Shown piece after piece: positions 6,275-27,032 of a DNA stretch of 28,516 nt. The first letter of the stretch is position 1; every line of letters begins with the position of its first letter. Position numbers and translations under genes: made by a program. The DNA lies in IMG/VR virus record IMGVR_UViG_3300006869_000071, positions 1-28,516 of that record; one strand, written 5' to 3'. The stretch is from a virus. Under the pieces are notes generated by a model. That model was not told where the DNA came from. It searched no databases and worked only from the letters and a program-made list of their open reading frames with translations.

Positions 6275-7309
6275 GTTTTTCTTAACAAATTTTAACTTAA
6301 CAAGTAAGTCAGTAGCATTTTTAGCAATACCAGCTTGCCAAACATACTGTCCAGATCCGGAAGGGATTGTACTAGTTAAAGCACTTCCGTCCCAGTAGTA
6401 CTTATCTCCTACAGTAGCAGAAGTAAGAACACCGGTAACTACAGCATCGTTAGCAGCAAATTTAACAGGGTTTCCAGATAGTACAGTTTCTAAAGCAATA
6501 CCAACACCATAGTTGTTTGCATTGATAGGCATTGGGCTTACTGTATCGTTAGCACTGAAATAAACTAAGTCACCAGCGTCAACATTTGCGCCAGTGTTAG
6601 AAATTTCTTGATCGTACTCGTTAGAAGCTAGTAAATATAGCTCGTCTAAAGCACCTTCTACGTTTGTTGAAGTAAAGTAACTATTAGCATCTTCAATGCC
6701 GATTAGAGAAGCACCTTCTCCGTTAGTGTTTGAAGCGTAGTCACCGTGCTTAAGGTCTAACTTTTCTAAAGCTGCATAAATAGCATCGTTGTCTGCAAGT
6801 ACGTTAGATTCAGTAAAGTCGTAAGTACTAGAAGTGTCACCACCGATTTGAGCTTCTAATTCGTTTAGAGCTGCTTCCATGCTATTTCCTGCGTAGTATG
6901 CACTAGCATCTTCGATACCAATAACTGCAGCACCTTCGCCAGTAGACGTAGAAGCTAGTAAGCTCATAGGGATAGCATCGTCAGAAGCACTATCAATTGT
7001 CAAAGTTGTAGGATCTCCTACGTTTGTTAATTGATTAGATCCCATTGATTGATCGCCAGTGAAAGCTCGTGTTCCAGCAACTAAGATGTACTGAGTGTGG
7101 TCGTCATCGCCTAGCCCAGTTAAAGAACCGTGATCGATGTCACCAAAGTCTAACATTGATGGATCAATTTTACCAGCAGCATCTAGTACAATTGGTTTTC
7201 CAGCATCGGCAACGCCTGCTGAAGAGTTAATAAAATCAGATTGCTCGTAAGCACCTGCACTTTCTTCGTAGTCTCCGTTTGAATCTACAAAAATAAATGA
7301 TTTAGCCAT
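6269..7309 (-). CDS. Tail fibre-like virion protein with two internal repeats (346 aa)
   Basis: Starts at ATG 7309 behind a full AAGGAGG site that overlaps the stop of the upstream gene. The N-terminal half is typical of phage fibres: KIDPSMLDFGDIDHGSL followed by GDDDHTQYILVAGTRAFTG, a motif frequently seen in fibre shafts. Two similar units follow, GEGAAVIGIEDASAYYAG...MEAALNELEAQIGG (about residues 123-157) and GEGASLIGIEDANSYFTS...VEGALDELYLLASN (about 198-232). The C-terminal ~110 residues (VDAGDLVYFSANDTV; TVGDKYYWDGSALTS; QAGIAKNATDLLVKLKF) look like a small beta barrel also present in the 155-residue protein upstream. No hydrolase motif seen. Likely a structural appendage component. 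Confidence 0.7.
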   Translation of the reverse strand: MAKSFIFVDSNGDYEESAGAYEQSDFINSSAGVADAGKPIVLDAAGKIDPSMLDFGDIDHGSLTGLGDDDHTQYILVAGTRAFTGDQSMGSNQLTNVGDPTTLTIDSASDDAIPMSLLASTSTGEGAAVIGIEDASAYYAGNSMEAALNELEAQIGGDTSSTYDFTESNVLADNDAIYAALEKLDLKHGDYASNTNGEGASLIGIEDANSYFTSTNVEGALDELYLLASNEYDQEISNTGANVDAGDLVYFSANDTVSPMPINANNYGVGIALETVLSGNPVKFAANDAVVTGVLTSATVGDKYYWDGSALTSTIPSGSGQYVWQAGIAKNATDLLVKLKFVKKNA

Positions 7310-7741
7310 TTAGTCCTCCTTAAGGATTCCGGTGTCTGGATCATAGCCAAAAGCACCTTCAATCCCATGTTTGTTTTTAAGTTCTTCTATAAATTTACGA
7401 TGTTTCTCTTTAAGTTGCTCAAGTTTCTGCTTGTTTGTTTTGACTTTTTCATTCAATCGTTGAATTTCATAATCCATGATAGTTACTTTTTGCTTCAGAA
7501 TGTTTTTCTGTCCTTCTATCAGGGCAATATCCTTTTGCGTTAACTGCATTAGTAGTGTTTGCTCTGCTTGCTCGCTGTGGTTAGCGTTTAGTTTTAGTAT
7601 TTCTACTTCGTCTAAGCACTTTTCAGCCGGCTCTTTAGACTCTGTAGATTCTTCAACTTTAGCGGGAGCTTTTAGTTTTTCAGTTTTAGCCTTTTTCACT
7701 ACTTTTTTTGCTACTTTTTTCTTTGTTTGTTTTTTAGTCAT
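7310..7741 (-). CDS. Lysine-rich coiled-coil protein (143 aa)
   Basis: Residues 1-45 are strongly basic and low in complexity (KKQTKKKVAKKVVKKAKTEK), then acidic. Residues ~50-125 form a long coiled coil (ALIEGQKNILKQKVTIMDY onward). The tail GAFGYDPDTGILKED is, from memory, a frequent ending of small phage virion-associated proteins. The start at ATG 7741 has AAAGGA six bases upstream. Its stop overlaps the ribosome site of the fibre-like gene 6269-7309. No catalytic or membrane signature. A structural or DNA-associated role is possible from the charge pattern, but this is inference. Confidence 0.7.
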   Translation of the reverse strand: MTKKQTKKKVAKKVVKKAKTEKLKAPAKVEESTESKEPAEKCLDEVEILKLNANHSEQAEQTLLMQLTQKDIALIEGQKNILKQKVTIMDYEIQRLNEKVKTNKQKLEQLKEKHRKFIEELKNKHGIEGAFGYDPDTGILKED

Positions 7742-9524: not shown

Positions 9525-11603
9525 TTAGAATGTATCTACTTCTGTGTGCGCTGGAAGCTCTTCAAGCGTAACTTGAGTATCTCCAAGTAATATCTGCCCT
9601 TCCGGTCCAAACTCTGTACTATTAAAAGTTAATGTTGTTGCTGTTGCCGTAAAAATATGACTTCGACTAAATTGAGAATATTCAAAACCAGAATCTCCCG
9701 GTCCACCTTCTCTACGAGCCCTAGCTATAGTGCTCCCGTTATGTACTGCCTCAAGAAGCATACCGCCCCCATTACTTCCACTAAAGTAGGGGTTCATAGT
9801 CACTTTATAAGTATTACCTATAACTAGATTTTGAAATCTTAAATCTACAATGTCGGTAACATTACTAAGTACGTTAGAACTAAGAGTTTTTGTTTGCCAC
9901 TTAGTAAAATTGGGCTGAATAACATCGGGCAGTTCGGCGATTTTAGTAATGTTTATCCAAGTATTAACAGCATCATCACTAATACTACTATTTCCAGAAC
10001 CTTTTCTTAGTTGTAGTTCATCACCCTTTTGTAATTGTAAAGTAGCTGAACCAACTTCTCCAGTAGTGCTTTCTACTATTGTAAGTCCTATTTTCTGTGT
10101 TCTAGTTCCGTTTATATATATATCAATATTGCCATCATCTGCTGTGCCTAATCTTACTGCAGAAGATATAGAATAGATACCTCCTTCTGGGGCTGTAAAT
10201 GTTCCGCTGGACCATGCTGCGTGAGTATCTATTATATTTGTGAAATCAATTGGAGTAACGTCTGAAGTAACTGATCCAGTAGTTGATCCTCTACCTAGTA
10301 CGTATACTGTGCGACCGCTTGAGTCGGATGCTTTTAAGTCTGGTTGTGCTAAAATTGATATTACTCTTCGAACACCTCCAACGGCTCCGGAAGCTCCATC
10401 ATTATGAGGTCTAAGAACATCTCCAGCTTTTAAAGGAATTGATACTGTAACACTTCCCCCAGCATTAATAGGAGTTAGGTACGTTAACGCCTTTCTATCG
10501 GCTTGTGTAATTGATTGGATTGAAGTCGTTAATTGATTTGAGTTTAAGGACCACCCAATATAGCCTAAACTGGAAAAAGCATCCGTATACGTAGCAGTAA
10601 CTAGACAGTCTTTTCTAGCTGTAACAGAAAAACCATTTGCAGACGTGCTTTCTATTTCAAGTATACCTGCGCCATCTTCTGTAAATGAGTCTACTGTAGG
10701 TATTTTATTATTAGTAGATCCGTTTGACGAGCCATCAAAGGTTTCCACATAATGAAATCCTATGTCGCCAATAGCACTTGTTTCTGCTGGACCAACTCTA
10801 AAGTTGTCAATTTTAATATCGTAATCATCTGTATCATTGCTGCCAATATGCACTAAAACTCTGTATGATGTTGAACCACCGCTAAAGGTTGCATAGCCCA
10901 GGTACTTTCCTGCAGGGCTTTTGGCTTCTACGCCAGCTTCGACTAGGTTTATTAGTCGGCTGTTAGTAACATCGTAGAGGTACACCTTAATATTATCAGT
11001 GCTATAATCTGCTGTAACGCTATAGTCAAAACTAACTGCGGCTAGTTGACCTTTATCGGCATCATCAATGCTAAAATCATAACTAATTCCTTCACCTTGT
11101 CTTGAAGCTGCTCCATTTTTTTCAATTAAAAAGCTTTTAGTTCCTCGAAGCGGGCTAGAGCTAGAAGCGGTAAATAGAATACTAGCACTTCCTCCAGTAC
11201 CATCTACTGGAACTTCAGAAGAGTCATTGTAAGTTGACCAGCCTGTAGTCCCACCTTCAGCGTCATTATTTTCTATATAGTTTATGCCGCTAGAACCGCT
11301 ACCAACTGTTTTCCACTGAGTTCCGTCATAGACGTATAAGCCTTCCGAGCGGCTAGTACCATCTGAGTAGAAAAACTGTCCTTGGATTGGTGAGCCTGGA
11401 TCGGCATCTAGGGGGTTAAGCTTTTGAGAGTCTATCTTTGTTCCAACAAATTCCCAGGCAGAGTCTCTGTAGATATACAGACCTTCAGTATTTGTAGTAC
11501 CGTCGTCGTAGTAGATCATGCCTTCTACGGGACTAGTTGGGGCTGCACTTAGTCCGTTCTGTTTAAGCGTATTTAGGCTTATATTTTTACCAATAAAGCT
11601 CAT
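9525..11603 (-). CDS. Large multidomain tail fibre/receptor-binding protein (692 aa)
   Basis: The N-terminus has two copies of a short unit, SPVEGMIYYDDGTTNTEGLY and SPIQGQFFYSDGTSRSEGLY, each followed by a W-x-x-V strand (about residues 22-100), a fibre attachment or collar repeat frequent in phage tails. Residues ~105-275 (NYIENNDAEGGTTGWSTYND ... DYDIKIDNFRVGP) look like a carbohydrate-binding jelly roll of the CBM4/9 type. Residues ~280-420 and ~430-560 contain C1q/TNF-like sandwiches (WSSGTFTAPEGGIYSISSAV; IDIYINGTRTQKIG; LQLQKGDELQLRKG). The last ~130 residues form another beta domain. Domain names come from pattern only. A receptor- or glycan-binding role is probable. It is first after a 202-base noncoding gap and has AGGAG nine bases before ATG 11603. 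Confidence 0.75.
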   Translation of the reverse strand: MSFIGKNISLNTLKQNGLSAAPTSPVEGMIYYDDGTTNTEGLYIYRDSAWEFVGTKIDSQKLNPLDADPGSPIQGQFFYSDGTSRSEGLYVYDGTQWKTVGSGSSGINYIENNDAEGGTTGWSTYNDSSEVPVDGTGGSASILFTASSSSPLRGTKSFLIEKNGAASRQGEGISYDFSIDDADKGQLAAVSFDYSVTADYSTDNIKVYLYDVTNSRLINLVEAGVEAKSPAGKYLGYATFSGGSTSYRVLVHIGSNDTDDYDIKIDNFRVGPAETSAIGDIGFHYVETFDGSSNGSTNNKIPTVDSFTEDGAGILEIESTSANGFSVTARKDCLVTATYTDAFSSLGYIGWSLNSNQLTTSIQSITQADRKALTYLTPINAGGSVTVSIPLKAGDVLRPHNDGASGAVGGVRRVISILAQPDLKASDSSGRTVYVLGRGSTTGSVTSDVTPIDFTNIIDTHAAWSSGTFTAPEGGIYSISSAVRLGTADDGNIDIYINGTRTQKIGLTIVESTTGEVGSATLQLQKGDELQLRKGSGNSSISDDAVNTWINITKIAELPDVIQPNFTKWQTKTLSSNVLSNVTDIVDLRFQNLVIGNTYKVTMNPYFSGSNGGGMLLEAVHNGSTIARARREGGPGDSGFEYSQFSRSHIFTATATTLTFNSTEFGPEGQILLGDTQVTLEELPAHTEVDTF

Positions 11604-11805: not shown

Positions 11806-12138
11806 TTATACTATAAACCAGTTAGATCCGTCAAATACGTACCGGTGTGAGGCGTAGTCACTGTTAATAACATGGGTTGCGCTGCCATCGATATTATTGC
11901 CGTTTCCTGACACTGTTTTATTATTAGTGCTTGCATTGCCCGCTGCATCTTTTATGACTATGTAGTCGTCTGTAGCTGGTGAGGCTGGCAAAGTAATGGT
12001 GTAGGCAGTGCCTGTAACCATATAGGTTTTACCGGCTTCAGCGTTAAAGGCTGATGCTTGAGCTTCTACGTCATGCACTGGGATAGCGTCATTTACGAAG
12101 TCAAAATTTGATGTAAAAGGGTTAAATTTTATTCCCAT
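11806..12138 (-). CDS. Fibre-tip-like virion protein (110 aa)
   Basis: A short protein that begins MGIKFNPFTSNFDFVNDA, a start seen in many phage tail-associated proteins. It continues with a beta tip domain: YMVTGTAYTITLPASPATDD, YIVIKDAAGNASTNNKTVSG, NIDGSATHVINSDYASHRYV and a final WFIV. The same LP...IKDASG..TNN.TV..SG..ID pattern ends the 218-residue protein at 23125-23781, so the two likely share a domain. The start ATG 12138 has AAGGAG seven bases upstream, and that site lies inside the last codons of the homing endonuclease gene. It is probably a distal tail component and has no catalytic motif. Confidence 0.7.
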   Translation of the reverse strand: MGIKFNPFTSNFDFVNDAIPVHDVEAQASAFNAEAGKTYMVTGTAYTITLPASPATDDYIVIKDAAGNASTNNKTVSGNGNNIDGSATHVINSDYASHRYVFDGSNWFIV

Positions 12139-12811
12139 TATTAATCTCCTTAATTTTTATAAATTTATAGTTTTGTGTGTGTAGTCTTTTTCCATTACAT
12201 ACAAGATTTACTTTAGATTTATTTAGTTTAAGTTTTCTTGCTGCCTCAGCTTGGGAATTGTAAATTTTTCCGTTATTAAGACATAATATTTTTATTGCGT
12301 TTTTTGGAATTCTATTAGTATTAGCTAATTTAGCATTTTCTATGCACTTTTTAGAAGGTTTTCTACCTTTTAAGGCTTTTGATATATTTTCACAATGCTG
12401 TTTAGATCTTATTTTTCCTTTTAAGGCTTTAGATATTTTATCTTTAGTAGATTGTTGCATTGATAAACATCCATCTCCTCCTAAAGTCATATTAATTAAT
12501 TTACAAGTTTTAGACTTTTGAGATATCTTTCTTACTTCAGCTTCTTTAATAAATTTTTTAGTAGTTAAAGCTATTACTCTCATTAAAGGTCTATATCCTT
12601 CTCTTTTTAATTTACTAATCCAATTTATTTTATGTTTGTTGCTTTTTTTGTTATTTACATGATCGCTATACCTCTTATTTAAATTATTAGTTCTTCCTAT
12701 ATACCTAACTTCATTTGTTAATGGATCTACTAATTCATAAACATACATAACTTCCTTGTTATGCATGTTAATAAAACTTGGTATATTTTTAATATTACGA
12801 TTTAATGACAT
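12122..12811 (-). CDS. Free-standing GIY-YIG homing endonuclease with NUMOD3 and NUMOD1 DNA-binding modules
   Basis: Homing endonucleases cut DNA lacking the element, which promotes their own spread. Residues ~20-115 form the GIY-YIG domain: the first motif is degenerate (MYVYELVDP), but YIG is intact (37-39), followed by R40, R47, H51, an acidic EAE (90-92) that can supply the catalytic Glu, and LINMTLGGDG (N107). Residues ~121-163 hold NUMOD3 repeats (TKDKISKALKGK; CENISKALKGRKPS). Residues ~171-217 hold a NUMOD1 helix-turn-helix (IKILCLNNGKIYNSQAEAAR; LNKSKVNLVCNGK). No intron is seen: the flanking genes look complete, so it is free-standing. It overlaps each neighbour by 17 bases. The start at ATG 12811 has only a weak AGG and lies inside the end of the upstream gene. 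It is more AT- and Lys/Asn-rich than its neighbours, consistent with transfer. Confidence 0.9.
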   Translation of the reverse strand: MSLNRNIKNIPSFINMHNKEVMYVYELVDPLTNEVRYIGRTNNLNKRYSDHVNNKKSNKHKINWISKLKREGYRPLMRVIALTTKKFIKEAEVRKISQKSKTCKLINMTLGGDGCLSMQQSTKDKISKALKGKIRSKQHCENISKALKGRKPSKKCIENAKLANTNRIPKNAIKILCLNNGKIYNSQAEAARKLKLNKSKVNLVCNGKRLHTQNYKFIKIKEINNGNKI

Positions 12812-14150
12812 TTATTAACCTATTATTAGCATCGTATGTTAAAGTTAGTGTAGCTATTGTAACAGTAGCTAGTTTATACGTTACGGTACTTATTTCTCCC
12901 AAACCATTTCCAGCGGCTACGTATGTTAAAGCTACTTCATCAAACTCATCTGGAACTAGAGATCCTGCAAGTCTTTTTTCTAAATTGTCAATATCAGTTT
13001 CAATATTATTTAGAGATGTGTCAATATCACTAAGCGTTGAATTTGCCGTACTTTGATTTGCAGCCGTTGAGGCTCCTGCTGGTAGTGGTAGACTAGCGGC
13101 ACTTACAGGTTGAGTCTCGGCTAGATCGGCTTTTCCTTCTAATTCAGTAAGTAGGGCAGCCATAGTCGTTTGAGTAGCAAAGTCCTTACCGTCAATAGAG
13201 CTTAGCGTGGATTCTGTAGCGGCACCGGCTGGTAGTGGAAGTGAGGCTGCACTTACAGGTTGCGTTTCAGTAACATCGGCTTTAGCTTGAAGCTCAGTTA
13301 GGATGGCGGCACTTGTAGTTTGAGTAGCAAAGTCTTTGCCGTCAATAGAGCTTAGCGTTGCTTCTGTAGCTGCTCCAGTTGGTAGAGGTTGACTAGCTTG
13401 GCTTACAGGTTGCGTCTCTGCCAAATCTGCCTTTGCCTCAAGTTCGGTCTGTAGAGCATCTAACTTGGCTTGGATAGATTGTAGTCGTTCTAGCACTGTA
13501 TTTGAAGTTGGGGTAGCGCTTACTTCACCAATTCGGCTATTGGTGTCTTCAATGTCTGCTTCAATTTGTTGCAGCTCAGTAATAGCTGAGTCCTGTTTGG
13601 CTTCTGTAGCTGATCCACTTGGAAGTGGTAAAGAGGCTACTGATACAGGTTGAGTTTCTCCTAAGTCTGCTTTAGCTTGCAGCTCAGTCAGTAAAGCAGC
13701 TAGTGTAGTTTGGGTAGCAAAGTCTTTACCGTCAATAGAGCTTAGCGTTGCTTCAGTTGCAGCGCCAGTAGGTAGAGGTAGACTTGAAGCACTAACAGGC
13801 TGCGTCTCAGTAACATCGGCTTTAGCTTGAAGCTCAGTTAATAAAGCTGCCAACGTAGTTTGTGTAGCAAAGTCTGTAGCTGCTAAAGCTGCTAGTGTAG
13901 TTTGGGTAGCAAAGTCTTTGCCCTCTAGAGCACTTAAAGTAGTTTGAGTAGCAAAGTCCTTGCCCTCTAAAGCGCTAAGAGTTGTTTGAGTAGCAAAATC
14001 TTTTCCGTCTAATGAGGTTAAAAGCGTGGTTTGACCGTCGAGCTCAGTATTAACATCGCCTAATTCGGTTATAATAGTATCTTGCTTGGCTTCTGTAGCT
14101 CCTCCTGAAATTGAAATGGAGCCTGCTGGTGGGTATGTAAAAACTGCCAT
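12795..14150 (-). CDS. Repetitive tail fibre/spike shaft protein (451 aa)
   Basis: Starts at ATG 14150 with GGAGG upstream. The N-terminus (MAVFTYPPAGSISISGGATE then AKQDTIITEL) and the repeated ATEA(K/T) segments are typical of phage fibre proteins. From about residue 48 to 365 the protein is built of ~50-residue units of the form DFATQTTLAALLTELQAKAD, then ETQPVSASSLPLPTGAATEA, with 14-residue DFATQTTLSALEGK units near the start. Units are near identical, implying recent duplication. Residues ~370-395 form a short coiled coil (NSTLSDIDTSLNNIETDID). The C-terminal domain ends YDANNRLINVIKS, resembling intact fibre ends, so the endonuclease gene that overlaps its last 17 bases has not truncated it. 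Probably a trimeric shaft. Confidence 0.8.
   Translation of the reverse strand: MAVFTYPPAGSISISGGATEAKQDTIITELGDVNTELDGQTTLLTSLDGKDFATQTTLSALEGKDFATQTTLSALEGKDFATQTTLAALAATDFATQTTLAALLTELQAKADVTETQPVSASSLPLPTGAATEATLSSIDGKDFATQTTLAALLTELQAKADLGETQPVSVASLPLPSGSATEAKQDSAITELQQIEADIEDTNSRIGEVSATPTSNTVLERLQSIQAKLDALQTELEAKADLAETQPVSQASQPLPTGAATEATLSSIDGKDFATQTTSAAILTELQAKADVTETQPVSAASLPLPAGAATESTLSSIDGKDFATQTTMAALLTELEGKADLAETQPVSAASLPLPAGASTAANQSTANSTLSDIDTSLNNIETDIDNLEKRLAGSLVPDEFDEVALTYVAAGNGLGEISTVTYKLATVTIATLTLTYDANNRLINVIKS
13060..14010 (-). repeat. Tandem ~150-bp coding repeats (with 42-bp sub-units) in the fibre gene
   Basis: Within the 451-residue fibre gene about five copies of a ~50-codon unit, and near the 5' end several copies of a 14-codon unit, follow each other. 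Short stretches such as GCAAAGTC and TCAATAGAGCTTAGCGT (plus strand) recur almost unchanged. Boundaries are approximate, read by eye from the protein pattern. Confidence 0.75.
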
Positions 14151-14151
14151 G

Positions 14152-14502
14152 TTATCCTCCTATCTGCTTAGCGGTCATATTGGCTGTCATAGAGCCGGTG
14201 CCGGACGTGTTAGTAAATGATAGTTTTAGGTGCGTGAAAGGCATGTCGGAGAATATAATGACGTGATCGCCACTATTTCCTGTAATAGAGATAGCGTCTA
14301 AACCTTCTAAATTGTAGTAGGTTCCTTTTTCTCCATTTTTAGCCTGTACTGCCATAGTGCCTACTGGGCTGCTTCCGCTCCACATAACATGGATTGATGC
14401 TTTGTCTAGATTTGTAACTACAATTTCTTCTGAATCTTGGTTAGACGAGATGTCTACTTCATCGAAGGGTTTGTAGCCTTTAATTACGTTTTTTCGTGCC
14501 AT
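14152..14502 (-). CDS. Virion-associated beta-sandwich protein upstream of the fibre (116 aa)
   Basis: A 116-residue protein beginning MARKNVIKGYKPFDEVDISS. Beta strands follow: ASIHVMWSGSSPVGTMAVQA, GLDAISITGNSGDHVIIFSD, PFTHLKLSFTNTSGTGSMTA. The pattern (a W-S-G-SSPVGT strand, then pF..l+l.y..tsGTG) matches, from memory, small proteins lying beside fibre genes in several phage groups, probably adaptor or chaperone-like structural proteins. Start ATG 14502 has GGAG seven bases upstream. It is the first full gene after the candidate promoter at 14545-14573. No enzyme motif. Confidence 0.7.
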   Translation of the reverse strand: MARKNVIKGYKPFDEVDISSNQDSEEIVVTNLDKASIHVMWSGSSPVGTMAVQAKNGEKGTYYNLEGLDAISITGNSGDHVIIFSDMPFTHLKLSFTNTSGTGSMTANMTAKQIGG

Positions 14503-14544
14503 TAAGGACTCCTTTTGGGTTAAGCTGTTTTCCAGCTAGTCGTT

Positions 14545-14573
14545 ATTATAGTTTAGCTGTTATTTAATTTCAA
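14545..14573 (-). promoter_or_regulatory. Candidate sigma70-type promoter before the appendage gene block
   Basis: On the minus strand TTGAAA (14568-14573) and TATAAT (14545-14550) are separated by exactly 17 bases, matching a host sigma70 promoter with one mismatch in the -35 box. Predicted transcription would begin near 14538, ahead of the 116-residue protein. The -35 box overlaps the last codons of the 25-residue microprotein. It is the only TATAAT in the minus-strand gaps with a well-placed -35 partner. Confidence 0.5.
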
Positions 14574-14637
14574 TGTCTCCAGTTTCGAACATTTCTAATA
14601 AAATAACTGTAAATAGTACTATTCCTAATAAGATCAT
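14560..14637 (-). CDS. 25-residue single-span membrane microprotein
   Basis: A very short gene: ATG 14637 with AAAGGAG six bases upstream, then 25 codons and TAA. The product starts MILLGIVLFTVILLEMF, one plausible transmembrane helix, and ends with an acidic/polar tail GDIEIK. It lies 16 bases after the stop of the 794-residue ejection-type protein. The ribosome site is as good as those of the large genes around it, which argues against chance. The role is unknown; small membrane effectors in phages include holin or antiholin partners and superinfection-exclusion peptides, but nothing here selects between these. Confidence 0.5.
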   Translation of the reverse strand: MILLGIVLFTVILLEMFETGDIEIK

Positions 14638-14653
14638 AACTTGCTCCTTTTAC

Positions 14654-17038
14654 TTAATTTCTTTTTTCTACTTGCTCTATTGATGTCATTTCATCGTCAG
14701 CCATGTCTAGTGCTTCGTATTTCCCTAAACTTTCACTTTGAGCTCTTTGTGCCCTTTCTTCTTGTTCTGCTCCAAAGTTAGCTTGAAGTAGTCCAATATT
14801 TTTAGGAATTAAAGCAGTATCTGCTGGTATGTTTAATAATGTCCCTATTTTTAATCTTTGTTGATAATTTAAAGTATCTGGGTTGTTAGCTATATATTCC
14901 ATAGATTGATCTTGTATTCGTTTATATAGATTTGGGTATATATTTTCTAATACTTCTACTTTTTCTCTAGTTAAAGATCCTTTTTCTAGATCATCTAATA
15001 CTGACATGGGATTATCTATAGCTTCCATATATCTTTCAAATTTTGCCATTTCAATACTAGAAGGACTGTAGTCTTTATTATTTTTTAAAGTTTGTATAGT
15101 TCCTTGGGCTGTTATTTTTTTAGGAATCTTATCATCTATAAAATGAACCATGTTGTTTATCATTGGAGTTACTGCTTGTACTGTATTTGGTGCAAAATTA
15201 TTTAAAGATGCTGTATTTCTTATTAGTTTTTCTGCTAATACATTAGGATCTTTATACTTTTCTATATTTGCTCTTATATTATTTAGAGCTTGTTTTTTAT
15301 CCAGTGGTTTTTTTCCTTTTTCATCCATAGCAATTGCTGATTTTAATATAGTATATTTTTTTGCAGGTTCTTTAAATTGCTTTAACTTTGCCAAGTTTGT
15401 ATTTTTAAAAAATCTATTAAGGCTGTTATTGGTTTTTTTAACAATTTCTTTGTTTGTTCTTTCTACGTGTGCAGCAACTATGTACTTGTTAAATGCTTTT
15501 GATTTTAATAGAGCTTTTCCTCCTAGTATAGTTCCGGTAACTGTAGGGTCTATTATAGCTCCAGTCATTCCCATCATCATGTCTCTTACGTTTAGTATAC
15601 TGTTTATATCCTCGTCAGCCATTTTTCCTACTTGAGTATTTCTAGGATTTAAGAATTTAGTAGACAGGCTATAACCTTGATTATGTTTTTTTAAACTGTT
15701 TAATAAATTCTCATCTATCAACTCAGCTTTTTTATATAATGTTTCATTTAACATGGTTCTTGCTTGATATATTGCGTTTTCAAACTCTGTAGGATCTTTT
15801 ACACTTTCAAATTTTATATTAGAATCTAGTTGTTGTCTAAGAGTTCTAAGCTGTGAAGGTTTTAGTTTTTCGTATGTTAGTGGAAGACCTTCTTTTAGAT
15901 TTCCTCCTAAATGTACTTCATCTATATTATTAACTATTTTTTCTAGAGCTCTAGCTTGTATTCTATCTCCTTCACTGACCGATTTTTTTAATCTTTGTAC
16001 TTGATCGTCTAAGAACTTCATTACTGGCACTATTGTGTCTACATTATTTAACTCGTCAATTCCTTTTTTTGATATAGCACTGTCTAAAGTTTCATATGCA
16101 TCATCTAATCCTTTTATAGACTTTTCTTTTATATCTTCAAATCTTTTTAATACGTTACTATTTGATTTAAATTTATCTAATAAACCTTCATCATAAAGAA
16201 AATTCATAATTTTTTTAGCTTCTTCTGGATCATCGAAAGACTTAGAAAATGAAGATGTATCTTTTATTTTAAATGCTTTTTTTGTTGCTTTTATTGGGTC
16301 CATAAATCCCAATTTTAATTTTGCTGCGGATTTATCAGCGATGTCTTTAGCTTTTGGTATGGTAGCCTGCACTCCTCCAAAAAGTTTACTAGCTGCTCCT
16401 CCCATCACTGCTCCTGTTCCTGCTGCGACAAGTGCGTTGGTAGCGTTAAACTCAGCATCTCCTAATATATCTTCTCTTAGTAGATCATGGACGTTAAAAG
16501 CTGCTGCTTCCATAGCCGATCCTAGATTTTCTGCTGATACTTTTTCGACTAGTTTTTTAGTAAATTTTTTATTTGCGGCGTTTTTAGTCAGAGTTTTTAA
16601 TATTTCTTTACCTGCTTTTTGACTAGCTTTTGCTATTAAAGATGGAGCAGTTTTAGCTGCTACTTTGCCTACTAAGGATGTTCCTCCAGATGCTGCAGCG
16701 GCTGCTATTGAAGCTCCTATATCGCCTCCGTAGAATTCTAAGGCATTTCTTTTTTTAATTTCTTTTAGTTCTTTTCTGGTATATAGTCCTGCTTTAATTG
16801 CAGCTAGTTCTGAGGCAGAATATGTTAATCCTGAAGCAGCTCCTAAGCCAAAAGCTTCTAAGCTTCTGTTTCCATACTTTCTTTCTAGTTCGATTTCTTT
16901 ACCTACTTCTTCAATATCTTCAGGAGTTAGATCTGATTTTAATTCTGGTAATTCGGACTCTACTCCATAGTACTCATTGTCCGGAGCCTCTATTCCTATA
17001 ACATCATCTAAATTTATTTTTATCTTATCATCTGCCAT
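14654..17038 (-). CDS. Large internal virion/ejection-type protein (794 aa)
   Basis: A long protein starting ATG 17038 (AAGGA upstream), two bases after the preceding stop. Residues ~60-150 and ~195-225 are rich in Gly/Ala with helical character (AFGLGAASGLTYSASELAAI; IAAAAASGGTSLVGKVAAK; NALVAAGTGAVMGGAASKLF), suited to membrane interaction. The middle is basic helical (EKIVNNIDEVHLGG; LRTLRQQLDSN), and the C-terminus ends in an acidic charged tail. No transglycosylase, peptidase or nuclease motif is visible. Size, composition and position after the nozzle and chaperone genes match internal core or ejection proteins of podoviruses that leave the capsid with the DNA and help form a channel. 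Assignment rests on context and composition. Confidence 0.7.
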   Translation of the reverse strand: MADDKIKINLDDVIGIEAPDNEYYGVESELPELKSDLTPEDIEEVGKEIELERKYGNRSLEAFGLGAASGLTYSASELAAIKAGLYTRKELKEIKKRNALEFYGGDIGASIAAAAASGGTSLVGKVAAKTAPSLIAKASQKAGKEILKTLTKNAANKKFTKKLVEKVSAENLGSAMEAAAFNVHDLLREDILGDAEFNATNALVAAGTGAVMGGAASKLFGGVQATIPKAKDIADKSAAKLKLGFMDPIKATKKAFKIKDTSSFSKSFDDPEEAKKIMNFLYDEGLLDKFKSNSNVLKRFEDIKEKSIKGLDDAYETLDSAISKKGIDELNNVDTIVPVMKFLDDQVQRLKKSVSEGDRIQARALEKIVNNIDEVHLGGNLKEGLPLTYEKLKPSQLRTLRQQLDSNIKFESVKDPTEFENAIYQARTMLNETLYKKAELIDENLLNSLKKHNQGYSLSTKFLNPRNTQVGKMADEDINSILNVRDMMMGMTGAIIDPTVTGTILGGKALLKSKAFNKYIVAAHVERTNKEIVKKTNNSLNRFFKNTNLAKLKQFKEPAKKYTILKSAIAMDEKGKKPLDKKQALNNIRANIEKYKDPNVLAEKLIRNTASLNNFAPNTVQAVTPMINNMVHFIDDKIPKKITAQGTIQTLKNNKDYSPSSIEMAKFERYMEAIDNPMSVLDDLEKGSLTREKVEVLENIYPNLYKRIQDQSMEYIANNPDTLNYQQRLKIGTLLNIPADTALIPKNIGLLQANFGAEQEERAQRAQSESLGKYEALDMADDEMTSIEQVEKRN

Positions 17039-17039
17039 A

Positions 17040-18854
17040 TTATTCCTTGTGCCACAATCCTTTTTCTTTTAATGCATTTATCGCCTCTTCTCTAGTTGCA
17101 TTTTTATATTTAGGAGTGTTTAGAACACTTTCAATATTTTTCTCATTTTTAGCTTTTGCTGAGTGGGAGGTGTAATCTGAAATTTTATATCCTTTTGTGA
17201 CTACTGCTTTAGATGGTATTCCGTAAGATCTTGATAATTTAGTAAATTCTTTATTTACTTTGTCTACCCTGTTTAAAGTTGCTTTATTCTTATTTACTAC
17301 TGATTTTATTAAATTTTGTTTTTGTTGTTTTGTAAGCATTTCGCCAGTAGTCATTTTTGCTACAAGTCTTTTTAATGATGAAGGGATTTTAGCGTTTAAT
17401 TCCATTCCATCAGGAGTTTCTAAAAATGCTCCTATATCCTTTAATGTTTTAAACTCTCCTTCTCTTACTACTGAAGTGGGGTCAAATGTTTTATAAAATA
17501 GATATATTAAAGATGCATCAGCAGGACCGGAGTTTTCTTCTATATTTCTCTGCATAGTTTCTAAATTTACTAACATGTCTCCTATGCCTATTTTATCTAT
17601 TTCTGATCTATATGTGTTATTTAACTCTCTTGCTTGTTTTTGTGCACCTTCATCTAAAAAATATATAGGTACGTCATCTCCCTTTCCTTCTAATATAGCT
17701 TTTTGGATTATTTTTTGTTTTTGAAGATTTTCATATTCTTTTGATTTTAGAGCCATTTCTTGAGCCATTTTATTCATTCTTACTCTGGACTCTTTATCTT
17801 TTATTATTAGCTCTTTTTTGCTAATTTCTTCTGCGGCTTTTTTATAATGATTAGATAGCAGAAGTTGTGCATGTTCTTTTTTTACGTTTCCTGCCTCTAT
17901 TTGCTGCTCTACGTCTTTATTTATAGCGTCTTGTAGCATTTTAAATGCAGTGTCTTCAGTTTTGGTAATGGCTGATCCATAAGAAGACATGGCTAGTGCT
18001 ATTGCCATTAATACTTTTGGACCAGTGTCCATATCTCTTAGATATCTTCCTGAGTCTATTTTATGGTCCTTATATTTATCTAAAGCATCTTGTACTGCCT
18101 TAAAATCGTTTTCTGTTTTTTGTTTAAAATCTTCTAAATCTTTTTTTTCTGAAGCTATTTGTCTATCATTAGCTTCTTTTTCCGCTCTTTTTTCTTTTAA
18201 AGGAGCTTGTTTTATTAGAATATCTTCTTCTGTGGGAGTAGAAGCTTTATCTATAGCATTTTGAAGCTCTTCTTTTTGCCTAGCATCTAGGCTTGCTCTT
18301 AGTGCCTCCTCACCTTCTTTTTTAGCTATAAGTTGCTCCATTTCAGGATCTTCTTCGAATTTATAACCTTTGCTAAGCATAAAATCTTTTTTAGTTTGGT
18401 ACTCGTTTATTAATTGCTGCTCTTCAATTTCTACTGCGCCTTGCCTTTCTTTTTCTAATTTTAAAGCTGCAGAGTCTTCTTGTTCCATTAATTGCAACTC
18501 ATTTATTATATCGTCTTGAGACGGAGTTCCAGCCATGTTAGGTGTTCTAGCTTTTATTCTAGTTATAGCTGTTTGATATCTACGATCTGCATTTTGTTGA
18601 GTTTCTATTTGAGATTCTGTAGTAGAGGGTAAGTCTTGTTCCGGTTTTATTACTGGAGGTACTGGCTCTACTGGCTGTATAGGAGCTAGTGGAGGCTGTA
18701 TAATTTCTTGTTGAGTTATGGGATCTATAATTGGCTGCTCAACTATTGGCTGCTCAGCTACTGTCTGTTCTACTATTGGCTGTTCGGCAGCTATTTCTTC
18801 CACAGGCATTGTGTCTTCTATCATAGGTTGTTCATTATTTATATTTTCAGCCAT
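17040..18854 (-). CDS. Large coiled-coil internal virion protein (604 aa)
   Basis: Residues 1-85 are a low-complexity, disordered stretch rich in Pro, Gln, Glu and Ile with repeated EQPIVEQ-like units. Residues ~90-385 are a long charged coiled coil (EKERQGAVEIEEQQLINEY; KKDLEDFKQKTENDFKAVQD) interrupted near residue 285 by a short hydrophobic patch (PKVLMAIALAMSSYGSAIT). The C-terminal third contains PADASLIYLFYKTFDPTSVVREGEFKT (about 445-470), a motif I associate with large virion proteins delivered or attached at the tail of phages with complex podovirus-like particles. No enzymatic site seen. The gene lies two bases upstream of the 794-residue partner, which suggests a common complex. Confidence 0.7.
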   Translation of the reverse strand: MAENINNEQPMIEDTMPVEEIAAEQPIVEQTVAEQPIVEQPIIDPITQQEIIQPPLAPIQPVEPVPPVIKPEQDLPSTTESQIETQQNADRRYQTAITRIKARTPNMAGTPSQDDIINELQLMEQEDSAALKLEKERQGAVEIEEQQLINEYQTKKDFMLSKGYKFEEDPEMEQLIAKKEGEEALRASLDARQKEELQNAIDKASTPTEEDILIKQAPLKEKRAEKEANDRQIASEKKDLEDFKQKTENDFKAVQDALDKYKDHKIDSGRYLRDMDTGPKVLMAIALAMSSYGSAITKTEDTAFKMLQDAINKDVEQQIEAGNVKKEHAQLLLSNHYKKAAEEISKKELIIKDKESRVRMNKMAQEMALKSKEYENLQKQKIIQKAILEGKGDDVPIYFLDEGAQKQARELNNTYRSEIDKIGIGDMLVNLETMQRNIEENSGPADASLIYLFYKTFDPTSVVREGEFKTLKDIGAFLETPDGMELNAKIPSSLKRLVAKMTTGEMLTKQQKQNLIKSVVNKNKATLNRVDKVNKEFTKLSRSYGIPSKAVVTKGYKISDYTSHSAKAKNEKNIESVLNTPKYKNATREEAINALKEKGLWHKE

Positions 18855-18866
18855 TTTAAGCTCCTA

Positions 18867-20096
18867 TTAAGATTTCTTTTTCTTTTTTTCTAATTCTTTA
18901 AGTCTTTCATTTAACTGTACTTGGGCAGCTAGAATTGATCCAAATCCTTTTCCATAGTCTACCATTTTTCCATATTCAGTATTTTTTACCATGCTTTTGC
19001 CAATTTTTCCTGCTTTTTCAAGATCTTGAGCCATTACAGAAAAGTGACGACCTTCTCCAGCTCCGGGCATGGATGGGTTTTTATATTCGTAGCTATACGC
19101 TTTTAATTTATCTAAAAAATCTTTAGAATTCATAGAATCTTTATTTGATTTTTTATTTTTATCTGAGTATGAAACTGATTCTTTTTTATTTTTGTCTGAT
19201 AACTGAGCTTGTGCCTGTCTCATCATAGCTCTTCCTTCAGATTTTGAAGTAGATGCTACATCTTCTATTCCAGATCCTAGACCTGATATAGCAGATTTTA
19301 TAGATTCTTTCTTTTTATCTTCTTTTTCATTATCTTTTTTATTTGTATTATCATTTTTAGATTCTATTTTAATATTTTTCTTTTGGTTTTTATCAGAGGG
19401 TGCAAATGCAGCTAAAGCTGTTCCTCCTGCCTTAAGTCCAGCTCCCATAAGACCAATATCTTGACCTCTTTGAGTTAATTCTGCACCTCTACGTCCCATG
19501 CTATGAGCACCTCTACCGGCTACTGCTGCTCTTTGGGCTTCAAACTGTTGTTGATTTATTTGCCTGGCAAGTTGTTGAGCTGCTAGATCTTGTTGCGATC
19601 CTAAAGCTTGTCTAGCGGCTAGTTGGGCACCTAGTTGCTGCTGGCTTTGGGATGCTAAAGATCCAAGTTGTTGTTGAGCGGCTTGTTGTTCTTGCATGCG
19701 AGTTACTGCTGATTGTTGTGCTATGTCACGTGCTGCAGCTTGTTGACTTCTCATTAGTTGTCTTTGGGCTGCTGCTCCTCCAGAACCTCTGGTACGACCT
19801 GCTGCTGCAAGTTGCTGAGCAAGGCTTCGATCCTGAGATTGTCTCATTTGTGCTTCAGCTAAAGATGGACCTTCTCCACGACTTTGAGCTTCTAATCTTT
19901 GCACTAGTCCACGTCTTGCGCCTACGTCTTCTTTTAACTGACCTGCAAGCTCGTCTTGACCGGCTATAGCTTTTCTAGATTCAGTTTCTCCACGTCTACG
20001 TAGTGCGTCGGCTCTAGACCTAGCTTCTCCAGTTTGTTCGATTCCTCGCTCGTATAAGCCTCTAAATCTTCTGTTTGTCCAACTACCTTTGCCCAT
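18867..20096 (-). CDS. Gln/Ala-rich virion protein with a C-terminal S74-type chaperone-like domain (409 aa)
   Basis: The first ~200 residues are a Gln/Ala/Arg-rich helix (RMQEQQAAQQQLGSLASQ) with a Gly patch (residues ~215-230). Three similar motifs follow: SDKNQKKNI (234), SDKNKKESV (300) and SDKNKKSNK (311), matching the SDxxxKxxI hallmark of the peptidase S74 intramolecular chaperone family. The last ~80 residues fit that domain: LKAYSYEYKN (331-340), PGAGEGRHFSVMAQDLEKAG (344-363), KMVDYGKGFGSILAAQVQL (377-395), then a C-terminal heptad-like helix ending in lysines. The domain commonly assists trimerisation or folding of phage tail proteins and then cleaves itself off. Here it caps a non-fibre, helical protein, so the chaperone may act on an ejection or tail-core protein. 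The Ser-Lys pair needed for self-cleavage seems retained. Confidence 0.75.
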   Translation of the reverse strand: MGKGSWTNRRFRGLYERGIEQTGEARSRADALRRRGETESRKAIAGQDELAGQLKEDVGARRGLVQRLEAQSRGEGPSLAEAQMRQSQDRSLAQQLAAAGRTRGSGGAAAQRQLMRSQQAAARDIAQQSAVTRMQEQQAAQQQLGSLASQSQQQLGAQLAARQALGSQQDLAAQQLARQINQQQFEAQRAAVAGRGAHSMGRRGAELTQRGQDIGLMGAGLKAGGTALAAFAPSDKNQKKNIKIESKNDNTNKKDNEKEDKKKESIKSAISGLGSGIEDVASTSKSEGRAMMRQAQAQLSDKNKKESVSYSDKNKKSNKDSMNSKDFLDKLKAYSYEYKNPSMPGAGEGRHFSVMAQDLEKAGKIGKSMVKNTEYGKMVDYGKGFGSILAAQVQLNERLKELEKKKKKS

Positions 20097-20157
20097 TTTT
20101 TATTCTCCTATAATTATAATACTAAAAAATATTTAAATTGTAAAGTTACTTTTAGCA

Positions 20158-23115
20158 CTATTCTCCTTTTGATGTTCCGTAAGTATTAGATCTATCGACT
20201 GCTAATCGTTGACCTTTTACGCCTACTTCAAATAACATGTTGGAAATACTAAGACCTTCACCTATTTCTTGGTCCTGAATTTCTTCAATGCGTATTTTAA
20301 TTGATTGGCATTTTTGAGTTTTTAGATCTAATCTAATTTGATGTACGTTTCCGTCCCCGCCATAAGCCTTAGTTATTGGATTTCCATAAGGCGAGTCTTC
20401 TCCGTATGCAGTATCGTCTGTAAAATCTGCTGTATCTATTATTTTTTCTTGTGTAAAAGCTTCATTAAAATTATAAGCTACTCGTATGCGGAGCTTGTGC
20501 TTGCTTTTAAATTTAGATAGAAGATAAAACTTGTAAACTCGTTGAAATCCTTGAACTTGTGCAAACGAGATCCATCCTGTTTCAAGGCTTAGATCTATAC
20601 TAGATCCATGATCATTAAACTTATCATCGTCTTCTTTGTATAGTACAGCATCTGGTCTAAGATAGTAGTAGTCTTCGTTAAGCACTACTGCACTTACTCC
20701 TCTATGATTTCCAAAAGTGGTCCATTGTTGTACGTAAAAGTCGTATACTAAACACTCACCTTCTCTAGTTGTAAACCGGACTTGGTTTTTGTCCGATATA
20801 ACTGCAGCACTAGTTACTGTTAAGTCATTGAAATCTTCTACGGCTGCTCCAATGTATTGTAGGGAGAGTCCTCTGTCTAGTAGGTATATGCCTTTTCTTG
20901 ATTTGAACATGGTGCCTAGGGGTGTTAAAACTACTGATTTTCCGTCAATAGCTCCTACTTCTGAGCTTACTTGCTCAGGCTCGATAAAAGTATCTTGTTC
21001 GCCTAAATTATTTGGACCATCTCCAGATATGTAAAATATAGCATCCTGCTTGAATATTATTAGCTTGTCGTCCATTGTCTGCATTGCTGTAATAGAGCCG
21101 CCTACGTTAGATACGTATTTGTATAGAGTATCGTTAAACTCAACCGGCTGATTTTCATCTCTTGTCTTGCTAAAAACTATTTTATCTCTATCTTCTAGTC
21201 CTGCTAAAAATATACGATCATTATGTGCTTCTATTATTTGGCTAGAAGGAGCTGGAATATTGTCTAAAAATCCACCAGTAGTGTATAAAATTTCATTGTC
21301 TATTAAATCTGTATCTGATACCGTATCTGTGACGTCTACAGTGTTTACGGTAGGATCATTAAATGTTGGATTAGTTGTTGAAGTTACTTTGTAGAAAATT
21401 GTCCCACCAGCTTCAGTTCTGTAAAGCTCTATTATTACATTTTCTTTATCTGTAAGACGAAGGCTAGGTACTGTAACTGTTTGAGTTTGAGTAGCTGTTC
21501 CTCCTGATAGAGCAATTGATATAGGTATAGATGGAGCTGATCTGTGAATTTGTCCATAATTATCTGTCCAGGCGTATACTGCACTGTACTGGTATGTTCC
21601 ATCTTCCATCGATCCGCCAGTAGTTGCTGTGCCTCCGTCTACTTTATCTTCTGGAAATAGTTGAAAGCCGTGTTCTACTACTACGTTACCGTCGTACATT
21701 TTAAGAGTTCCTCCGGTAATGTGCAGGTTATCTCCTAGTTCGTCGTTTTGGTATGGATCGCTAATATTAAAGTTTAGTTCTGTGCTGTTAATTCCTAGTA
21801 CGGAAAAGAAAGTCCCATCATCAGTTACTGTCTTTCCTTTAATGAGTGAGCCTATTACAAACTTGTTTTCTTCTAGTAATGATACTTTAGGTAGCATGGT
21901 GGTTAATCCACCTCCGATGCTTGGGCTTATTTTACTAATGATACAGCCGTCAGATTCTACTACAAAGTATGTGCTTTGCAAAGTTGATTGGTGCACTGTA
22001 GTAACATAGTACTTAGAATTTGTTGAAAATGCTTTTGAGGCTAATCCTACGCTTCTAATGAGTACTGATGCCGTTCCTACTGTTCCAGCAACGTCTACTG
22101 TGTTTGATTTTACGTAAGTGTCTTTAGCTGATGCTGCTTCTATTTCGTAAAAAGTTATGTAGTCTGAGCTATCTGGTCGCTGAATGGTAGTTACATTTAC
22201 TGCATCTGATATTGTCTCTATAACTGTAGCTGCTAATATTTCTCCAGTTATTGTTAGAGCTCTTATGTTTATTTTTACTTCTGTTCCGTTTGAGTAGGTT
22301 ATAAGTATTCTGTCGTTAGCGTCGGTATATACGTCTATAGCTTTGCTAGGAGTTTCTCCGGCTACAGTTACGATAGAGCTTATATTTCCTATTAAATCTA
22401 CAGATAGTACGCTTAGTACTGCACCTGTGTTGTTATAGCTTATAATATTTTTATTTGCTGCAGCAGCAACGTCATATATTTTATCAGTAGCATTTAGATC
22501 TGAGACTGCAGTAGATTCTGAGCTTATTGTTGTAGGTGCTATTAGATTTACAGTTTTATATTTAATATCTGTTCCATCTATGTAGAATATAAATAAAGTA
22601 TTTTGGATATTAGTAATTCTAGGCTTAGTTCCTGTGGCACTAATAGAAGCATCGGATAAGATAAAGTTTCCACTTTGATTGTCTTTAATGGTTAGCCGAA
22701 TTCCTCTAGAATCTTCATATGTAAATGCATTTAGATTGTCTGATGAAACTAAATCTACATTGCTTTTGCTGTAATCATCTCTAGTTACTGGGCTAGAAGT
22801 TGGAAAAGCGCTAAAAATTTTACCTTTATTTGTCCATTTATCAATAGCTTCTGATCTAGAGTAGTATTGGTTATCTGTCATTAATCCAAGTTCGTCTCTA
22901 AATTTAGTTAAAGTTTTTGCATTTAATATAGAGTTATTATTGATATCTTTAGTAATTATTAATTCGTATCCGTTTCTTTTTCTTAATTTTTTTAAGGTAT
23001 CAAAGATAGCATTTTCTAACCGTCTTAGGTATCCTATATTTTCTTGCTTTTCATCTATTTTGGTATCTATACCAACTTGAAAAGGAATGGATATAAGTCT
23101 TTTTGGTAAAGCCAC
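20158..23115 (-). CDS. Tail nozzle / head-stabilisation protein (985 aa)
   Basis: A long beta-rich protein beginning GTG 23115 (GAGG upstream). The N-terminus (MALPKRLISIPFQVGIDTKI then NIGYLRRLENAIFDTLKKLR with RNGY) matches the stabilisation/nozzle protein family of podovirus tails (P22 gp10/T7 gp12-like), which builds the tube below the adaptor ring. The C-terminal third has the conserved propeller segments: IIEAHNDRIFLAGLEDRDKI, FSKTRDENQPVEF, MDDKLIIFKQDAIFYISGDG, VGAIDGKSVVLTPLGTMFKS, GIYLLDRGLSLQYIGAAVED, VYDFYVQQWTTF. The central region carries Ser/Thr/Val-rich beta structure that could be an extra domain. It follows the adaptor and two short genes, as expected for tail assembly. Family call by remembered motif patterns. 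Confidence 0.85.
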   Translation of the reverse strand: MALPKRLISIPFQVGIDTKIDEKQENIGYLRRLENAIFDTLKKLRKRNGYELIITKDINNNSILNAKTLTKFRDELGLMTDNQYYSRSEAIDKWTNKGKIFSAFPTSSPVTRDDYSKSNVDLVSSDNLNAFTYEDSRGIRLTIKDNQSGNFILSDASISATGTKPRITNIQNTLFIFYIDGTDIKYKTVNLIAPTTISSESTAVSDLNATDKIYDVAAAANKNIISYNNTGAVLSVLSVDLIGNISSIVTVAGETPSKAIDVYTDANDRILITYSNGTEVKINIRALTITGEILAATVIETISDAVNVTTIQRPDSSDYITFYEIEAASAKDTYVKSNTVDVAGTVGTASVLIRSVGLASKAFSTNSKYYVTTVHQSTLQSTYFVVESDGCIISKISPSIGGGLTTMLPKVSLLEENKFVIGSLIKGKTVTDDGTFFSVLGINSTELNFNISDPYQNDELGDNLHITGGTLKMYDGNVVVEHGFQLFPEDKVDGGTATTGGSMEDGTYQYSAVYAWTDNYGQIHRSAPSIPISIALSGGTATQTQTVTVPSLRLTDKENVIIELYRTEAGGTIFYKVTSTTNPTFNDPTVNTVDVTDTVSDTDLIDNEILYTTGGFLDNIPAPSSQIIEAHNDRIFLAGLEDRDKIVFSKTRDENQPVEFNDTLYKYVSNVGGSITAMQTMDDKLIIFKQDAIFYISGDGPNNLGEQDTFIEPEQVSSEVGAIDGKSVVLTPLGTMFKSRKGIYLLDRGLSLQYIGAAVEDFNDLTVTSAAVISDKNQVRFTTREGECLVYDFYVQQWTTFGNHRGVSAVVLNEDYYYLRPDAVLYKEDDDKFNDHGSSIDLSLETGWISFAQVQGFQRVYKFYLLSKFKSKHKLRIRVAYNFNEAFTQEKIIDTADFTDDTAYGEDSPYGNPITKAYGGDGNVHQIRLDLKTQKCQSIKIRIEEIQDQEIGEGLSISNMLFEVGVKGQRLAVDRSNTYGTSKGE

Positions 23116-23124
23116 ATTAACCTC

Positions 23125-23781
23125 TTATGATTTGTGCCATGCTGAAGAACCGTCTCCAACTATCATGGTGCTTGAATTATCTGAAGCTATTATTAGAGAA
23201 GATTCATTATCTATAGTATCTGATCCTGATACATTAACGGTTATATTATTTGTATATGATTGTCCAGATGCATCTTTGATTATGTAAATTCTACCTGTTG
23301 AAACTGAGTTAGCTAAAGGTAGGGTTATAGCACGAGGAGAAGTAGTATCAACAATAAGATAAACAAAGGTATCCGAGGCGCTAATAGCGATGTCGCCGGC
23401 AACACTCGTCGTCTCAAATAGTTGAGCATTACCAGGAGTCGAAGCAAGAGCTCCACCAGAGGTGATCTGAATTGCAACACCACCAGAATTAGTAAAATAG
23501 AGATCTCCACTAGATACGTAGACTGATGAGGCATTTGAGGCTCCTGTTAGTGTTGATCCGTTGTTAATGTATTGAGTGCTTAGTAGGCTAAATGGTTTAT
23601 TAGAGTTAAAGTCTAAGTTTTCATTTATATTTAGACCTGCTGTAGGTACTTGAGTTCCTTTTCCGCTTGTATGATCGTGTGAGTCTATAGTTTCTATAGC
23701 TGTATTTAGGTCTGTAGCCCACTCCGGTCCTAATGTGACCGTAGGTGTTGGTAGGTCTAAATTCATAAAAGTTGTCGCCAT
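23125..23781 (-). CDS. Tail fibre-like protein with SHDHTSGKG motif and tip domain (218 aa)
   Basis: Starts MATTFMNLDLPTPTVTLGPE with WATDLNTAIETIDSHDHTSG, then KGTQVPTAGLNINENL. This GP.WA..LN.A...ID.HDH..GKG pattern is familiar from short phage tail spike and fibre proteins that attach to the tail. The second half (ASDTFVYLIVDTTSPRAITL, then YIIKDASGQSYTNNITV) shares the LP...IKDASG..TNN.TV..S..ID tip domain with the 110-residue protein at 11806-12138. No hydrolase motif. The start has GGAG nine bases upstream. Position between the adaptor/109-residue gene and the nozzle protein places it in the tail. Confidence 0.75.
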   Translation of the reverse strand: MATTFMNLDLPTPTVTLGPEWATDLNTAIETIDSHDHTSGKGTQVPTAGLNINENLDFNSNKPFSLLSTQYINNGSTLTGASNASSVYVSSGDLYFTNSGGVAIQITSGGALASTPGNAQLFETTSVAGDIAISASDTFVYLIVDTTSPRAITLPLANSVSTGRIYIIKDASGQSYTNNITVNVSGSDTIDNESSLIIASDNSSTMIVGDGSSAWHKS

Positions 23782-23790
23782 TATTATCTC

Positions 23791-24120
23791 CTAAAAAATC
23801 CAAATGTCTACTTGTACTGCATGGGAGCATGCTATACTTAGACTCGTAGTCGGTTGAGGATTTGTATCTTGTAAATCCCATATTCTAGAGTCTGCTCTTT
23901 TTCTTACTATAAACCATCCGAGTGGTTTGCGTCCTAGTTTGTGCTTAATTTCATTAGATACTCCAGCTTCTAAGCATATATCTTTTACTAAAACTCCGTC
24001 TAATGGTGTAAAGTTTAAAACGTATTTTGCAAATTGTTCTACATTTTCTTGTACTTGCTTTACTTCTCTGTCTTTAGCATCTATTTTTTTAAATGCTTTT
24101 ACGCTATTATTTCGAGCCAC
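23791..24120 (-). CDS. Small conserved podovirus tail-region protein (109 aa)
   Basis: Starts at GTG 24120 (GGAG six bases upstream). The N-terminal third is a helix (NNSVKAFKKIDAKDREVKQV). The C-terminal part, FTPLDGVLVKDICLEAGVSN, then IKHKLGRKPLGWFIVRKRAD and VQVDIWIF, matches a pattern I recall from short proteins between the adaptor and nozzle genes in many podoviruses (HxLGRxPxGW). A baseplate, fibre-hub or tail-needle part is plausible; no function is known to me. The adaptor gene ends two bases upstream. Confidence 0.7.
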   Translation of the reverse strand: MARNNSVKAFKKIDAKDREVKQVQENVEQFAKYVLNFTPLDGVLVKDICLEAGVSNEIKHKLGRKPLGWFIVRKRADSRIWDLQDTNPQPTTSLSIACSHAVQVDIWIF

Positions 24121-24122
24121 TA

Positions 24123-24824: not shown

Positions 24825-24838
24825 GGTATCTCCTGTGT

Positions 24839-24862
24839 AAAAAAGCCCCTCATTCGGGGGCT
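24839..24862 (-). terminator. Strong rho-independent terminator between head and tail genes
   Basis: On the minus strand AGCCCC and GGGGCT form a perfect 6-bp GC-rich stem (loop CGAATGA), followed by TTTTTT. The hairpin ends just before the ribosome site (CAGGAG) of the adaptor gene, leaving no space for a promoter. It likely lets head genes be expressed more strongly than tail genes, with partial read-through. Confidence 0.85.
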
Positions 24863-24873
24863 ATTAATCCTTT

Positions 24874-25149
24874 TTAGTCTTCTTTTTCTTCTTCTAGCAT
24901 GCAGAGTGTTATAAAAGACTTAAGTGCGCTTTTAAGTGCTCCTGCATCGCCGCTTTTAATAGAGCTGATTAGTTCTTCTGCGGCTACGTCATAGCCATTT
25001 TGATTGTACTCAACTTCTGCTCCATCTTCTACTTTTTTAGGCTTCATTACTTCTTCTTTCATAGAATCATAGTCGCTAGAGCCACTAAGTTTTTTTCTAA
25101 TTTTTAAAAGTATTGCGCCTTTTTTCTTTTCATCTATTGGCAATGGCAT
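24874..25149 (-). CDS. Small acidic head-region protein (91 aa)
   Basis: Unknown family. Residues 1-35 are lysine-rich helix (MPLPIDEKKKGAILLKIRKK), the middle is acidic (KKVEDGAEVEYNQNGYDVAA), and the C-terminal ~40 residues form an amphipathic helix (EELISSIKSGDAGALKSALK) ending in Glu/Asp. It is the last gene before the head-tail terminator and follows the decoration-like gene by 12 bases. A small helical head protein or assembly cofactor is plausible, but no motif is diagnostic. GGAG with a seven-base spacer supports ATG 25149. Confidence 0.65.
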   Translation of the reverse strand: MPLPIDEKKKGAILLKIRKKLSGSSDYDSMKEEVMKPKKVEDGAEVEYNQNGYDVAAEELISSIKSGDAGALKSALKSFITLCMLEEEKED

Positions 25150-25161
25150 TTTAGGCTCCTA

Positions 25162-25497: not shown

Positions 25498-25539
25498 GAT
25501 AATCTCCTTTTAGTCAGACCTCGACAATGAGGGCTGCGA

Positions 25540-25737: not shown

Positions 25738-25750
25738 AGTTAGTCCTAGA

Positions 25751-25780: not shown

Positions 25781-25791
25781 TATATTAAAAA

Positions 25792-26997: not shown

Positions 26998-27032
26998 TTT
27001 AGACTCCTTTATTTTAAGTTAGTTAGTTGTTA

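Follow-up and report, generated by a model that had tools for sequence, protein, structure and literature searches.

How did a gene for a GIY-YIG endonuclease come to lie where two tail genes of a phage meet, and what became of its neighbours? The question is raised by the window (the whole 28,516-nucleotide stretch analysed here, IMG/VR virus record IMGVR_UViG_3300006869_000071), in which the following genes succeed one another.

12795 to 14150, minus strand: upstream 451-aa repetitive gene; its C-terminal domain belongs to a tail-gene module that is widespread (C-terminal profile match E 2e-16).
12122 to 12748, minus strand: putative homing endonuclease gene in its likeliest coding extent, 208 aa from Met22, with a GIY-YIG domain, NUMOD3 helices and an I-TevI/I-HmuI-type DNA-binding end.
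11806 to 12138, minus strand: downstream 110-aa tail-associated gene (MGIKFNPFTSNFDF...), matching phrog_972 (tail fibre proximal subunit, 1.7e-8) and 96% identical in the empty relative described below.

The window matched the annotated phages neither in DNA nor in capsid, so the phage stays unclassified. What is new is that such a phage carries a free-standing GIY-YIG homing endonuclease in its tail operon; the type itself is well known. Our reading, which we hold to be quite likely, is that a free-standing, I-TevI-like GIY-YIG homing endonuclease gene invaded the seam of the two tail genes, with cleavage and mobility presumed.

The identity of the gene product is the first step. Counted from its first ATG (12811), an open reading frame of 229 aa is present at 12122-12811 on the minus strand, where a reading of the sequence without database searches had placed a GIY-YIG homing endonuclease, and profile searches bear this out: in Pfam the GIY-YIG domain (E 1.3e-6) and an I-HmuI/NUMOD-like C-terminal part (2.8e-7) pass the cut-off, with a weak NUMOD3 match (0.017), and in PHROGs the frame matches phrog_314, homing endonuclease (4.7e-16). 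In an alignment of 26 homologues, numbered from Met22, residues Y4, Y16, G18, R26, H30 and E71 are invariant and N86 is conserved at 90% or more, and the predicted catalytic residues Tyr, Tyr, Arg, His, Glu and Asn are all kept. The AlphaFold2 model has a mean pLDDT of 88 but a pTM of 0.49, which means that each domain is modelled well but their placement relative to one another is not. The top Foldseek matches of this model were the I-TevI DNA-binding domain, GIY-YIG restriction enzymes, I-HmuI and the I-TevI catalytic domain, with probabilities of 0.98-1.00 despite every match missing E 0.001; 1i3j (the I-TevI DNA-binding domain) and 1u3e reached probability 1.00 with E > 1e-3, and 1ln0 (the I-TevI catalytic domain) had a TM score of 0.71 by target. 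A profile search against PDB sequences also finds I-HmuI and I-TevI. As the earlier reading had noticed, the composition is unlike that of the neighbours: the gene has 24.3% GC against 42-44% in both of them, the lowest of 25 genes checked, and Lys and Asn make up 30% of its residues. Taken as a prediction from sequence and modelled structure, an I-TevI-like free-standing GIY-YIG homing endonuclease is a well-supported product of this gene.

The borders of the gene bear on how it would be expressed, and four further features are needed here.

12749 to 12811, minus strand: stretch read as coding from ATG 12811 but probably made up of spacer and the upstream gene's end; most homologues have no counterpart to it, 12811 lacks a strong ribosome site and 12748 is a rival start.
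12740 to 12769, minus strand: predicted RNA hairpin AACATGCATAAC-AAGGAA-GTTATGTATGTT with a 12-bp stem, the ribosome site in the loop (12752-12757) and the AUG (12746-12748) in the stem.
12146 to 12151, minus strand: AAGGAG ribosome site of the downstream gene, recognised from sequence within Lys-Glu codons of the endonuclease.
12113 to 12131, minus strand: 19-nt TAAAATTTAACCCTTTTAC, the same in the full and the empty allele; it is the right border of the insert and contains the endonuclease TAA stop.

Homologous endonucleases mostly start 2-5 residues ahead of the GIY motif, and the ATG at 12748 (Met22) has AAGGA 4 nt upstream, within the hairpin. Because of the homologues' starts, this Shine-Dalgarno site and the 12-bp hairpin, a start at 12748 is more likely than one at 12811, and the spacer to the upstream gene would then be 46 bp; the extent given above rests on Pfam/PHROGs, the homologues' starts, AlphaFold2 and Foldseek. 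The 17-bp overlap with the upstream gene that had been claimed is thus probably wrong, since it needs ATG 12811, although there would be nothing strange in such an overlap, given that in T4 one of 20 bp is described for segC and one of 11 bp for segF, each with the gene upstream (PMC2988022). At the other end the earlier description holds: the stop TAA (12122-12124) lies inside the downstream gene, giving a 17-base overlap with the start of 11806-12138, and the last codons of the endonuclease do contain the next gene's AAGGAG.

The hairpin has a predicted energy of -13.0 kcal/mol, a stability reached at only nine loci (56,974 30-nt windows, both strands), and only one other stem of at least 12 bp exists on the minus strand. 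Folding z-scores are -2.6 for the hairpin region and -4.3 for the start region of the endonuclease. Across the wider endonuclease family, structure at starts with z<-2 occurs in 10/65 against 8/150 (Fisher p 0.018), a modest enrichment that is suggestive only. The hairpin was noticed after the fact and is known from near-identical copies, without covariation, and no late promoter was identified. Hairpins that hide the ribosome site or start have been described for T4 segB, I-TevI, I-TevII, I-TevIII and Aeh1 mobE (PMC2988022), and the one here may keep expression of the endonuclease low or late. A start codon buried in a stable hairpin, together with the very AT-rich composition, could also be expected of an inactive remnant of a homing endonuclease. 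We regard that as very improbable, as the gene has an open frame, the expected catalytic residues and a complete DNA-binding end, and the frame is also open in the two further IMG/VR contigs that bear it (99.97-99.99% identical to the window). Elsewhere in the window, at 25750-25785 on the minus strand, lies its strongest hairpin (-20.6 kcal/mol, 14-bp stem), just after the major capsid gene (25792-26997).

Whether the gene is a recent arrival can be judged from relatives. IMGVR_UViG_3300036713_000194 is 96.9% identical to the window across 14 kb, and in it the same two neighbours are joined directly without the insert, as TAGGAGGCACCATG (ACTTAGGAGGCACCATGG). The upstream 451-aa protein, mostly KDFATQTTLAALLTELQAKADVTETQPVSAASLPLP-type repeats, is 91% identical to its 454-aa homologue there. 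By comparison with this empty relative both neighbours are intact, in line with the earlier claim of an insertion between complete genes, and no intron is indicated, because the empty allele joins two genes simply and the insert lies between genes, not within one. The names 'fibre' for the upstream and 'tip' for the downstream gene proved loose: the downstream gene does match tail families (phrog_972), but no firm tail family was matched by the upstream one. Similarity to the empty relative varies along the genome. The capsid-side genes at 22000-26997 are 99.6-100% identical in most 300-bp blocks and 14000-22000 is ~89-99% identical, so that recent exchange appears uneven.

The junction itself is far more widespread than the endonuclease. 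It belongs to a two-gene tail module, in which a C-terminal ATLTLTYD..V.S domain is followed, almost without a gap, by a gene starting M..KFNPFTGxFD. In the distant relatives L054-L058 and L046-L048 both modules are present with stop and start codons overlapping or a few bases apart. A pattern scan for the FNPFTG motif placed the upstream module 60 bases or less from the start in at least 103 of ~122 loci among the matches listed (L059-L178), and an insert of 600-900 bp at the junction was seen in none of these ~122 FNPFTG-type loci. The annotated cyanophage S-B28 has the junction, also empty; its upstream-module protein is annotated merely as 'hypothetical protein'. In a second junction scan (24 loci) the insert occurred only in two near-identical contigs, and of 80 endonuclease relatives just two, both near-identical copies, sit at this junction. 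A search of bacterial genome contigs yielded no relative. A GIY-YIG gene in locus L026 was considered as a relative at the same junction and rejected, being distant and preceded by an unrelated 149-aa gene, though a large tail-like ORF is close by. In that different phage the GIY-YIG endonuclease gene (6912-7622) lies 0.6 kb past a 1948-aa tail-like ORF.

In the close relative and in the distant phages, then, the two tail genes are adjacent, as the sequence-only reading had expected of relatives lacking the gene; carriage of the gene by all relatives, which it had named as evidence against itself, is not what we found, the close relative and the sampled phages being without it. Because the close relative and the sampled distant junctions lack the gene, parsimony over one close empty relative and the distant phages suggests that the window's lineage gained it. 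A GIY-YIG nuclease of benefit to host or phage, acting in repair or in attack on competitors and forming a stable, non-mobile part of the tail operon, has in its favour that the GIY-YIG group includes UvrC and restriction-like enzymes, which are likewise among the fold matches, but its C-terminal half matches the DNA-binding parts of I-TevI and I-HmuI, the gene is missing from the close relative and every sampled distant junction, and several other endonuclease relatives adjoin unrelated genes (DNA polymerase, head protease or helicase); we find a resident nuclease scarcely credible.

If the gene was gained by invasion, its flanks may record how. Two stretches beside the insert depart from the empty relative.

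12795 to 13200, minus strand: tract of foreign sequence that flanks the insert within the upstream gene's 3' end, recognised by identity profile, GC and AU test.
12059 to 12138, minus strand: short diverged downstream flank of ~80 bases, 77-88% identical to the empty relative.

Measured against the single close empty relative that serves as reference, identity is 57% in the 60 bases adjoining the insert, 65% at 12915-13034, 77% at 13035-13094 and ~95% by 13215; the lowest 200-bp window (58%) is the one next to the insert, and all windows beyond it (13200-27024) have at least 82%. GC falls to 33% in the final 200 bases of the upstream gene, compared with 48% in the empty relative and 46% in the remainder of the gene, and the protein that these bases encode scores best with L054-L056, not with the close relative. 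A donor of the AT-rich tract was not found, the best protein match being L054 (35/54 residues). A tree of the C-terminal domain (61 columns, many weak branches) rejects the window and the close relative as a clade, with a p-AU of 0.002. Because of the identity profile, the GC shift, the best matches and the AU test, the endonuclease-bearing allele is the recombinant one, and the tract replaces the C-terminal domain of the upstream gene over its last ~200-400 bp.

This pattern matches co-conversion during homing, but modules exchanged without any cutting would look much the same. An AT-rich cassette of C-terminal domain plus a real endonuclease gene could have been swapped between tail modules by homologous or illegitimate recombination, with the endonuclease as a passenger. 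Such modules recombine anyway in this phage, as the distal part of the 692-aa fibre (9525-10780) differs with no endonuclease beside it, and a two-gene junction common to very diverse phages is a ready crossover point. The divergence that peaks at the insert and decays with distance, and the retention of all expected catalytic residues, speak against a passenger without excluding it, and we consider it unlikely. Under the invasion that we favour, two phages would meet in a mixed infection, and the enzyme would cut the one that lacks the gene, at its empty junction or close by. Repair templated by the genome that carries the endonuclease would then copy the gene with its flanks, and the copied flank would take the place of the upstream tail gene's C-terminal domain. 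The ribosome site of the downstream gene now lies within the last codons of the endonuclease.

The sequence-only reading had further proposed that the gene could spread fibre alleles by marker conversion. A footprint is there, in the last ~200-400 bp of the upstream gene; it does not extend to the receptor-binding tip. The distal part of the 692-aa fibre (9525-10780) is ~42-67% identical to the close relative in 150-bp blocks, the proximal part is 87-97% identical, and the distal part has sub-threshold C1q/BclA_C matches. Conversion of this fibre tip by the endonuclease was considered and rejected: ~1.3 kb at ~94% identity separates it from the insert, so that its transfer is not indicated, and the distal-fibre difference is best seen as a separate module swap.

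The arrangement recalls the intronless homing of the T4 Seg family (SegF, SegG, SegB), in which, as here, a stand-alone gene lies between conserved genes and a GIY-YIG domain is combined with a C-terminal DNA-binding part and a flank conversion pattern. Co-conversion of flanks and marker exclusion have been described for seg genes, and a start-codon hairpin was reported for segB (PMC2988022), as the candidate hairpin lies at the start here. Unlike the T4 seg genes, the present gene belongs to an operon of tail genes, in a phage that is unclassified and matches no annotated phage in DNA, and its right end overlaps the next gene and holds its ribosome site. I-TevI, encoded in the intron of T4 td, has the same two-part architecture and a hairpin over its start, but sequence identity to it is low and no intron is indicated here. 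Homing endonucleases beside tail fibre loci have already been noted: in the Markadamsvirinae of the BASEL collection, putative ones are variably present around the lateral tail fibre loci of otherwise similar phages (PMC8594841). That case concerns a different phage group and is a mention in a figure legend, which carries no footprint analysis.

The tail-gene seam is common to more than 100 sampled viral loci. A speculative and rather doubtful extension is that the endonuclease exploits the conservation of this two-gene tail junction across very different phages; it could then home between phages with hardly anything else in common and reshuffle the upstream tail protein's C-terminal domains. 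The fibre-tip variation in the window is an event apart from the endonuclease insertion. What the locus offers is a pair of full and empty alleles with an unusually clear footprint of flank replacement in an uncultured, unclassified phage, and it illustrates how part of a neighbouring tail gene could travel with a homing endonuclease.
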